From positions 1-64,000 of the forward strand of contig JAUTCT010000108.1 in NCBI GenBank assembly GCA_030673875.1: DNA of 64,000 nt, read 5' to 3'. The position numbers and the translations under genes are program-made. Below are positions 26,342 through 64,000 of the stretch, in pieces (the first letter of the stretch is position 1; every line of letters begins with the position of its first letter). The DNA is from Verrucomicrobiota bacterium JB025 (lineage in GTDB: Bacteria > Verrucomicrobiota > Verrucomicrobiia > Verrucomicrobiales > Akkermansiaceae). The notes beneath the pieces were generated by a model that saw only the letters and a list, made by a program, of their open reading frames with translations, was not told the DNA's origin and did no database searches.

Positions 26342-26431
26342 GGAACGGTGGCTGAGTGGTCTAAAGCACATCCTTGCTAAGGATGCGTACCGGAAACGGT
26401 ACCGAGGGTTCGAATCCCTCCCGTTCCGCCA
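26342..26431 (+). tRNA. tRNA-Ser (GCT)
   Basis: This is a class II tRNA. The acceptor is GGAACGG/CCGTTCC and the anticodon stem CATCC/GGATG carries anticodon GCT. A long variable arm CGTACCGGAAACGGTACCG follows, then T-arm GAGGGTTCGAATCCCTC and encoded CCA. Its 3' half is the left end of the 206-bp tandem repeat. Confidence 0.96.
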
Positions 26432-26842
26432 CGACCCCCGCCCGACTCGTTCGGGCGGGGGTCGTGGCGTTTTACGGCAGGGACAAGCCCCCTAACGCCC
26501 TGCGTCCAGGGTTCGACTGCCTCCGCCGAAAGCCTGCCCCGCAGGCGAACGGCAAGCACCTCTCCGGGCCTCCGGAGGAGGAGGCCCGCACCCCGCAGAG
26601 CCGGAGCGGAGCGACGGCAATCCCTCCCGTTCCGCCACGACCCCCGCCCGACTCGTTCGGGCGGGGGGCGTGGCGTTTTACGGCCGGGCCAAGCCCCCTA
26701 ACGCCCTGCGTCCAGGGTTCGACTGCCTCCGCCGAAAGCCTGCCCAGCAGGCGAACGGCAAGCACCACTCCGGGCCTCCGGAGGAGGAGGCCCGCACCCC
26801 GCAGAGCCGGAGCGAAGCAACGCCAATCCCTCCCGCCCCGCC
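26413..26842. repeat. 206-bp tandem duplication starting in the tRNA-Ser 3' end
   Basis: Unit 1 (26413-26618) and unit 2 (26619-26824) are identical except for eight substitutions. A diverged third start follows at 26825-26842. Each unit opens with the 19 bases AATCCCTCCCGTTCCGCCA, the tRNA-Ser T-arm and acceptor end. It then holds a long terminator-like hairpin (CCCCCGCCCGA/TCGGGCGGGGG) and two further perfect hairpins (GCCTGC/GCAGGC and GGGCCTCC/GGAGGCCC). No protein frame is credible. The rest of the gap to 27007 shows nothing recognisable. Confidence 0.9.
26431..26466 (+). terminator. Terminator of tRNA-Ser
   Basis: A near-perfect stem ACGACCCCCGCCCGA / TCGGGCGGGGGTCGT starts at the CCA end of the tRNA and is followed by GGCGTTTT. 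A slightly mutated copy recurs 206 bases later. Confidence 0.75.
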
Positions 26843-41618: not shown

Positions 41619-41719
41619 GCGCCAACTCCAACCATCCCGACAATCGCCCGGCTCCCCCTTGCTCCCGGTGCCGCCGGCCCCGCAGCACCACCACCCCGGG
41701 AGCCCCTGCGGATCTCCCC

Positions 41720-41917
41720 GCACCACGCACCACGCACCACGCACCACGCACCACGCACCACGCACCTCCCGCCTCCCGCCTCCCGCCTCCCGCCTCCCGC
41801 CTCCCGCCTCCCGCCTCCCGCCTCCCTCCTCCCTCCTCCCGCCTCCCGCCTCCTGCCTCCTGCCTCCTGCCTCCTGCCTCCCGCCTCCTGCCTCCTGCCT
41901 CCCGCATCCTGCCTCTC
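41720..41917. repeat. Heptanucleotide tandem array
   Basis: Six copies of GCACCAC pass directly into about 26 copies of GCCTCCC/GCCTCCT, nearly all in 7-bp register (one local irregularity at 41762-41770). The minus strand is G-rich (GGGAGGC repeats), which could form a G-quadruplex. It is not a protein-coding stretch; frames through it are just repeat readings. It ends 21 bases before the TetR promoter region. Confidence 0.92.
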
Positions 41918-62115: not shown

Positions 62116-64000
62116 TCACCCCGCCCCGGTCGCAAAACGCTTCTCCAGCTCCCGCATCCCGAACTCACTCATGGTCGGCCTGCCGTCCGCACCACAATAC
62201 GGCAGCTCGCATCCGAACAACTCCGCCAGCAAGGCCTCGACCTCACCAAGCCGCGGCTCGACATGCCGCGCCGCCCGCTTCGCCATCAACCGCGCCACCC
62301 GCTCGCCCGCAAATCGACCGCCGGCCGCCGGATCGTGCAACAACTCGTCCAACAACCCGCCCACAAACTCCCTCGCATCCACCACCCCCAGACACGCGGG
62401 CAGCGCCCTCACCTGCACGGTGTTGCCGCCGAATGGCTCAAGCTCGACCCCCGCCTCACCCAGCGCAATCCGCTCCCGCATCACCAGATCCAAATCCCGC
62501 GGATCCAGATCCAGCAACACCGGAACCAACAACGGCTGCACCACCACCTCACCACCTTGCCGCCCCAGCAGCTGCTCGAAATAAATCCGCTCCTTCGCCG
62601 CCTTCGGGTCAAACAGCACCAACCCGTCCCCGCTTTCCATCACCACAAACCGCCGCCGCAACAACCCCATCACCCGAAACCCCGGAACCACTCCGGCACT
62701 CGTATCCTCGGCCTCACCCATCGCCGCAATCTCCTTCCGAATCCAATCACCCAAATCCTCCTGCGGCGCAGCAAACGCCGTCGCCACCGGAACCGGCACA
62801 GGGACAGGCACCGGAACCACACCTTCCACACCTTCCACACCTTCCACACCTTCCACACCTTCCGCACCTTCCGCACCTTCCGCACCTTCCGCACCTTCCG
62901 CACCTTCCGCACCTGCCGCACCTTCCGCACCTTCCGCACCTGCCGCACCTGCCGCACCTGCCGCACCTGCCGCACCTGCCGCACCTGCCGCACCTGCCGC
63001 ACCTGCCGCACCCATGCTCTCGACAAGCGGCACCAGCTCCCGCTGCGATCCACCGCCCCCACCAGACGCCAGCCGCCGCAGCCCCTCCGTCACCGACTCC
63101 ACAATCGCCTCCCGCAAATCCAGTGGCCGATGCAACCTCACCTCCCGTTTCGCCGGATGCACGTTCACATCCACCAACGCCGGATCCAGATCGATCCACA
63201 ACCACGCCGCCGGATGCAGTCCGCCGGAAACCGCCCCCTTGAACCCCTCCGCCAAGGCCCGCGAAATCACCGCGTCCTCCACCGGCCGGCCATTCAAAAA
63301 CACGAACTGATGCCGCCTGCCCTTGCGCGCATGACTCGCCGGCAGCACGAAACCCTCCACCGAAACCCCGTTCCCGTGCGTCAGCGGCAAGCTCACCAAC
63401 TCCCCCGCAAGATCAGCCCCCAGCAACTGCCTCACCCGGTCCACCGACTTCTCCACCGCCGGCAAATCAAACACCTCGCGCCCGTTCCGCCTCAACCGGA
63501 ACCTCACCCGCGGCACCGCCAGCGCATGCAAGCGCATCTGGTGCTCCACATGCGCCGACTCCGTCGATTCCGCCCGGAGAAACTTCTTCCGCGCCGGCAT
63601 GTTGAAAAACAACGCCTTCGCCTCAATCACCGTGCCCGGCGCACAACCCGCGTCCCGCACGTCCCGCAGCTTCCCACCATCCACCACAATCTCCGTGCCC
63701 GCCACCGCATCCGCCTCCCGCGTCACCATCCGGAACCGCGAGACACTCGCAATGCTCGGCACCGCCTCCCCACGAAACCCCAGCGTCCTGATCTCTGCCA
63801 GATCCCCCACCTCCCGCAACTTGCTCGTCGCATGCCTCTCCAGCGAAAGCAGCGCATCCTCCCGGCCCATCCCGCAGCCGTCGTCGCTCACCCGGATCAG
63901 CCCCGCACCACCACGGTCCACATCCACCCGCACCTCCCGCGCCCCTGCATCGATGCTGTTCTCCACCAATTCCTTCACCACCGATGCCGGACGTTCCACC
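62116..64000 (-). CDS. mutL: DNA mismatch repair protein MutL, 5' end outside the window
   Basis: MutL couples MutS mismatch recognition to strand removal. About 20 N-terminal residues lie beyond the window. The GHKL ATPase motifs are intact: [11 protein letters not shown] (about 11-21), [11 protein letters not shown] and [11 protein letters not shown]. The linker holds 21 glycine triplets (Gly-Ala-Ala, Gly-Ala-Glu, Gly-Val-Glu) at about residues 330-392, encoded by 9-bp repeats, then [10 protein letters not shown]. The C-terminal dimerisation domain keeps [16 protein letters not shown], where active nucleases have DQHAAHE. The zinc motifs CPHGRP and AC-K-A also look altered (CGADGRP). This suggests a MutL without endonuclease activity. 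Confidence 0.95.
62824..63012 (-). repeat. 9-bp minisatellite within mutL (21 units)
   Basis: Reading the plus strand there are four TTCCACACC, six TTCCGCACC, one TGCCGCACC, two TTCCGCACC and eight TGCCGCACC, with no interruption. Every unit is nine bases, so copy-number change keeps the mutL frame. Confidence 0.97.

Follow-up and report, generated by a model that had tools for sequence, protein, structure and literature searches.

An in-frame 9-bp tandem array in the disordered MutL linker of a Verrucomicrobiota bacterium: a coding minisatellite, probably tolerated and not special to mutL

Does an array of 9-bp units inside mutL set the mutation rate of its bearer, or is it a minisatellite that the protein tolerates? 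The question is raised by a stretch of 64,000 nucleotides (the window) at the start of contig JAUTCT010000108.1 of Verrucomicrobiota bacterium JB025, whose genome (G000; 4.65 Mb, 167 contigs, 93.5% complete) has as its best named relatives mostly metagenome assemblies of Akkermansiaceae. Very probably, the array is a coding minisatellite made by unit duplication in a disordered linker, which is tolerated and is not a device special to mutL.

The window ends within mutL, which lies on the minus strand. The coding part in the window occupies positions 62116–63999, with the stop codon at 62116–62118, and the start codon falls outside, at about contig position 64059; from there the frame is unbroken and its product has 647 residues. 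The initial annotation had named the gene mutL, and this is borne out by a TIGR00585 match of 439 bits (cut-off 180) and by Pfam domains on both sides of the array: the matches of the N-terminal ATPase half, including DNA_mis_repair (residues 190–307), end at residue 307, and MutL_C covers residues 445–577. The host protein is thus MutL, with an N-terminal GHKL ATPase and a C-terminal dimerisation domain in a single frame, and the array, at residues 330–392 of the product (P0001), lies in the linker between the two, as annotated. In an AlphaFold2 model built from 33 aligned sequences, pLDDT is below 50 across residues 315–435, and the linker that holds the array is predicted to be disordered. 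The domains on either side mostly reach pLDDT values of 80–97, with a dip to 54–66 at residues 51–80; the modelled N-terminal domain matches the MutL structures 9n2k and 1b63, and the modelled C-terminal domain the Bacillus subtilis MutL structures 3kdg and 3kdk.

The array measures exactly 189 bp (62824–63012, minus strand), that is, 21 units of 9 bp, free of indels and in perfect register. The annotated run of 21 uninterrupted units therefore stands, yet it is made up of three kinds of unit: in the mutL frame, on the minus strand, nine are GGTGCGGCA (GAA), eight GGTGCGGAA (GAE) and four GGTGTGGAA (GVE), in the order 8A-2E-1A-6E-4V, or (GAA)8(GAE)2(GAA)1(GAE)6(GVE)4. They encode 63 residues, (Gly-Ala/Val-Ala/Glu)21, with glycine at every third place, in agreement with the glycine triplets first described, and with no proline. 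A degenerate 22nd unit, GGTGTGGTT, follows (62815–62823, minus strand), and a short Val-Pro alternation adjoins it (62785–62814, minus strand). Tandem Repeats Finder (TRF) reports 62820–63012, 21.4 copies and 97% matches with a score of 295, against a top score of 87 among 600 shuffles (300 dinucleotide and 300 codon) of the mutL part within the window, array letters included. With head-to-tail, in-frame units and a length that is a multiple of three, the array is a coding minisatellite.

Several features of the array bear on how it arose. Like units cluster: adjacent units differ in kind four times where 13.3 would be expected, and 1 of 100,000 shuffles gave so low a value. Codon use is uniform inside the array and differs from that outside it: glycine is GGT at all 21 places, against 16 of 61 outside, where GGG is commoner; glutamate is GAA at 12 of 12, against 4 of 50 elsewhere in the part of the gene that was read; and GCA, the alanine codon at the unit's third place, occurs nine times in the array against 3 of the 63 alanine codons outside. 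The GCG and GTG of the array are common outside it too. Third-position GC is 0.33 in the array and 0.80 outside. Moreover, each of the two types of unit-to-unit change replaces a residue, and none is synonymous. The order of the blocks and the uniform codons fit the copying of DNA units, as had been proposed, and not long selection on the protein stretch, an indication rather than a proof, as the events are few. The exact unit pair (GGTGYGGMA twice) is found at a single place in its own genome, and for this unit a mobile or dispersed element was rejected on that ground; the pair is present in 3 of 72 other genomes of the genus, and the reversed control of the pattern has six matches in the own genome. 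When two mismatches are allowed the unit pattern gives 63 matches against 61 for its reversed control, so that it is non-specific once loosened; one single 18-base near-match to the unit lies on contig C38. Secondary structure as a driver was also rejected, because a 143-nt part of the array has an ordinary folding energy on either strand (z = −1.04 for the G-rich strand, z = 0.04 for the other).

The linker was compared across a set of 73 genomes of the genus, one per species, of which 68 matched the MutL query and 64, with both domains, were counted. Those dropped were G004 and G012 (weak matches, E 7e-5 and 9e-4), G006 (C-terminal part only) and G043 (domains on separate contigs); G032, in which the C-terminal frame is broken, and G046, with a TGA within the C-terminal match, were kept as read, and named loci repeating the same contigs were counted once. 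With query residues 308 and 434 as its limits, linker length ranges from 41 to 125 residues with a median of 63 (n = 64), and the window and G033 share the longest linkers, at 125. The array of the window is absent from the other 63 linkers, and G031, whose N-terminal part is the most similar (88–89% identity), has an array-free linker of 73 residues. Strong tandem arrays occur in 4 of the 64 linkers (scores 52–171, next best 15), which may exceed the background. In the linker of G033 a strong 9-bp array is built from a different unit, which codes for Pro-Gly-Gln, and the tree requires two separate origins for this array and that of the window. The sister genomes G049 and G051 (support 100/99) have four and three copies, respectively, of a 30-bp unit in the mutL linker; tandem copy number there has thus changed between close genomes. 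The array studied here may itself be unstable. Among loci L053–L119, taken as outside the genus although not checked singly, the best tandem score in 50 loci is 13 and the linkers measure 37–182 residues; a trend between the genus (scores of at least 52 in 4 of 64) and other bacteria was not retained, as the numbers are too small.

The array stands ahead of an 11-residue linker motif (62743–62775, minus strand) that has counterparts in many relatives, and it does not disrupt this motif, which fits tolerance. The pattern [PVIHGAS]Q[PRSAEQK]x[LFMI] is found in 55 of the 64 linkers; 500 shuffles gave a mean of 8.2 and at most 16. The pattern was shaped on the same linkers, and a stricter, earlier one fitted 29 of 64; in 53 of the 55 linkers the match lies 12–48 residues ahead of the C-terminal domain. 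Some forms, QPALPL and QRELPL among them, are presumably similar to Hda-type clamp-binding peptides. A dispersed short repeat close to GACGGTCACAGACCGCCGCTACA also occurs within the mutL linkers of G049 (L121), G051 (L127) and G054; at up to two mismatches it has 100 matches in G033 and 26 in G054 (none in the reversed control), and none in the own genome of the window.

Arrays with short units are found elsewhere in the same genome. A sample of 705,666 bp (41 stretches, including the window) holds 23 arrays with a period of at most 60 and a score of at least 100, five of them of period 7 and three of period 9, and the mutL array has the top score (295, next 284). The sample is not random: it joins the window to stretches on contigs already listed by the unit-pattern or Collagen searches (C103 and C127 through the latter, C108 as the contig of the window) and to the first bases of contigs C1–C21 without C5, and so favours contig ends. 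In the window, adjoining 7-bp arrays (CGCACCA, 6.9 copies, and CCTCCCG, 21.6 copies) at 41719–41915 are flanked by two genes named by eye from their translations, one for a methyltransferase-like protein and one for a TetR-like regulator, and a 206-bp tandem duplication (2.1 copies, 95% matches) is present at 26413–26842. Positions 69–1122 of locus L209, on contig C5 of the same genome, form a CRISPR-like array with a repeat close to GCTTCAATGGGACCGCGCCTGTGAAGGCGCGGAAAT.

Within the genus, 36 of 73 genomes have Pfam Collagen matches; among named control genomes the figure is 3 of 14. Of 20 stretches surrounding glycine-rich or collagen-like matches, 18 of which come from relatives, 14 contain a 9-bp array (TRF score of at least 90) and one an 18-bp array; among seven stretches read as proteins, six of the 9-bp arrays lie inside the protein frame. 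Since 9-bp arrays occur in other genes of the relatives, mutL is not special in this respect. In two small proteins (G064 and G048) the array stands between two halves that are similar by eye, with helix-turn-helix matches in one, and an array protein of G025 has no family match. In four look-alike proteins of VWA/TPR type (G037, G064, G051 and G058) the arrays are near the C-terminal end; Pfam finds TPR in three of the look-alikes (over the cut-off in one), VWA in one and nothing in the fourth. The arrays of these four proteins (loci L172, L174, L183 and L184) have 9- or 18-bp units and give Asp-Gln-Lys and Asp-Ser-Lys triplets.

We infer a process of copying with a near-neutral effect on repair. 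Probably, a single 9-bp unit was duplicated by replication slippage or unequal recombination, which would have started the array and then lengthened it, in a linker that is hypervariable and predicted to be disordered. Steps of nine bases would preserve the frame and a floppy linker would bear the extra residues, and the array would persist for these two reasons. MutL most likely works about as before, on a longer tether, and the array is probably one case of a habit, shared by this genome and its relatives, of growing 7- and 9-bp arrays; it looks recent and tolerated. A core DNA repair protein has a natural tether range of 41–125 residues within one genus, with arrays of at least three unrelated units, and these linkers offer natural variants in which an effect of length on mismatch repair could be sought.

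A side result bears on how DNA is nicked during mismatch repair in this genus. MutL proteins of the endonuclease type carry the motifs DQHAxxExxxxE and CPHGRP. Neither is found in the MutL of the window, where the 12 residues in place of the former (62575–62610, minus strand) read DPKAxxExxxxE and CGADGRP (62176–62196, minus strand) takes the place of the latter. Across the genus, D-P-[K/R]-A replaces DQHA in 64 of 64 proteins (K in 54, R in 10, H in none); the D of the first motif is kept in all 64 and each Glu in 60. The C and H of CPHGRP are at their places in none of the 63 proteins with letters there (one row being a gap), and a Cys stands one place before the C in 63 of 64. From these residues, the MutL of the genus seems to lack the endonuclease site. 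A MutH match was found in none of the 73 genomes, the E. coli control being detected, and MutS domain I in 70 of them. Two deeper Verrucomicrobia loci (L060 and L061) keep DQHA, and a single MutH match turned up among 189 genomes sampled from the order, in a genome of the same family (G145:C93:32037-32354). QPLLVP (62521–62538, minus strand) is a putative clamp-binding motif, by its place in the C-terminal domain. Our searches of the literature on MutL and MutH in Verrucomicrobia, on MutL without endonuclease and on minisatellites in Verrucomicrobia returned nothing useful.

Against a tolerated minisatellite stands the proposal of the initial annotation that the array is a graded mutability dial, in which in-frame changes in unit number would alter linker reach and thereby, in steps, repair efficiency and mutation rate. 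Part of its ground is firm: the unit is of 9 bp and the frame intact, so a change in length would stay in frame, the linker has 125 residues against a median of 63, and tandem copy number in the mutL linker differs between the sisters G049 and G051. Moreover, yeast MutL-alpha is reported to be sensitive to its linkers, which, when shortened, lengthened, scrambled or swapped, give mild to severe repair defects, with a short critical stretch (PMC6393296). In E. coli, however, cutting the MutL linker from 100 to 60 residues, i.e., by 40%, reportedly gave no mutator phenotype, although roadblock bypass was lost in vitro (PMC6902014); in addition, linkers of 41–125 residues are natural within this one genus and the arrays are not special to mutL. 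What holds for the linkers of E. coli or yeast may not apply here, because the nicking route in the genus may differ, given the degenerate MutL motif and the MutH not found. The supposition that MutL guards its own array is not supported either. According to one study, mismatch repair mainly targets bulges of 1–4 bp, the contraction of the 15/18-bp tolA repeats is RecA-dependent with no significant effect of mutS, and the same lack of effect is cited for 28 loci with units longer than 5 bp (PMC3477136); the range of MutS is likewise given as up to four nucleotides in another (PMC8235422). A 9-bp unit should therefore largely escape mismatch repair, which weakens the feedback on which a dial would draw. 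Nor is the parallel drawn with the 6-bp repeats of Salmonella and E. coli a close one: those repeats are reported to form part of the lid that covers the ATP pocket and to act as an on/off switch, the loss of a unit giving a defective allele (PMC2955026), and the present array (residues 330–392) lies past the end of the N-terminal domain match (307), outside such a lid. We therefore consider a graded dial very unlikely. Its further form, a self-adjusting control in which unit number drifts in frame, each length has another repair efficiency and lineages with differing mutation rates coexist, is very unlikely indeed. If true, the on/off mutL switch of Salmonella would have a graded, reversible counterpart in a genus whose MutL is seemingly without an endonuclease site and in which MutH was not found. 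If linker length did affect repair, an in-frame mutL repeat would provide gradual control of the mutation rate, on which we found no paper in a literature searched without most subscription journals.

Two other readings concern the stretch itself. In one, the Gly-X-Y stretch would form a collagen-like triple helix through which MutL chains associate. Pfam Collagen (PF01391) does match residues 331–387 with 32.2 bits (cut-off 27.2), a match that follows from the glycine at every third place. In collagen-like proteins, however, the X and Y positions are rich in proline and hydroxyproline, and the 63 residues of the array hold no proline; the region is, moreover, disordered in the AlphaFold2 model, and Gly-X-Y triplets are numerous in just one of the 63 other linkers, that of G033. 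Since MutL proteins are also reported to act mainly as dimers (PMC12733681), we regard a triple helix as extremely improbable. In the other, the unit number would have been created or collapsed in assembly, as might happen in a draft of 167 contigs in which 4 of the 23 sampled arrays reach a contig end. The mutL array, however, lies inside a 78-kb contig with the frame intact on both sides, and the variant units limit the longest exact repeat in the array and 60 bp around it to 70 bp, so that short reads could resolve it; an artefact is thus highly improbable. The existence of the array is safe and the exact number of units less so, as it rests on the draft assembly.

A coding minisatellite, probably tolerated, in the MutL linker can be set beside three known systems. 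Like the array, the tolA repeats of E. coli (PMC3477136) are in-frame coding repeats confined to one segment of a conserved protein, and the frame is kept when copy number changes. The tolA units, however, are of 15/18 bp, and their strain variation, contraction rate and stress phenotypes have been measured, whereas the mutL array is known from sequence alone. The 6-bp switch of Salmonella and E. coli (PMC2955026) is likewise a tandem repeat within mutL in which a change of unit keeps the frame. It consists, in contrast, of three units in the lid of the ATP pocket, where the loss of one yields a defective MutL, and the present array of 21 units lies in a linker predicted to be disordered. Lastly, MutL variants of E. 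coli (PMC6902014) and of yeast (PMC6393296) resemble it in that the length of the same linker differs; those variants were engineered, whereas the lengthening seen in the window is natural and has been read from the DNA only.
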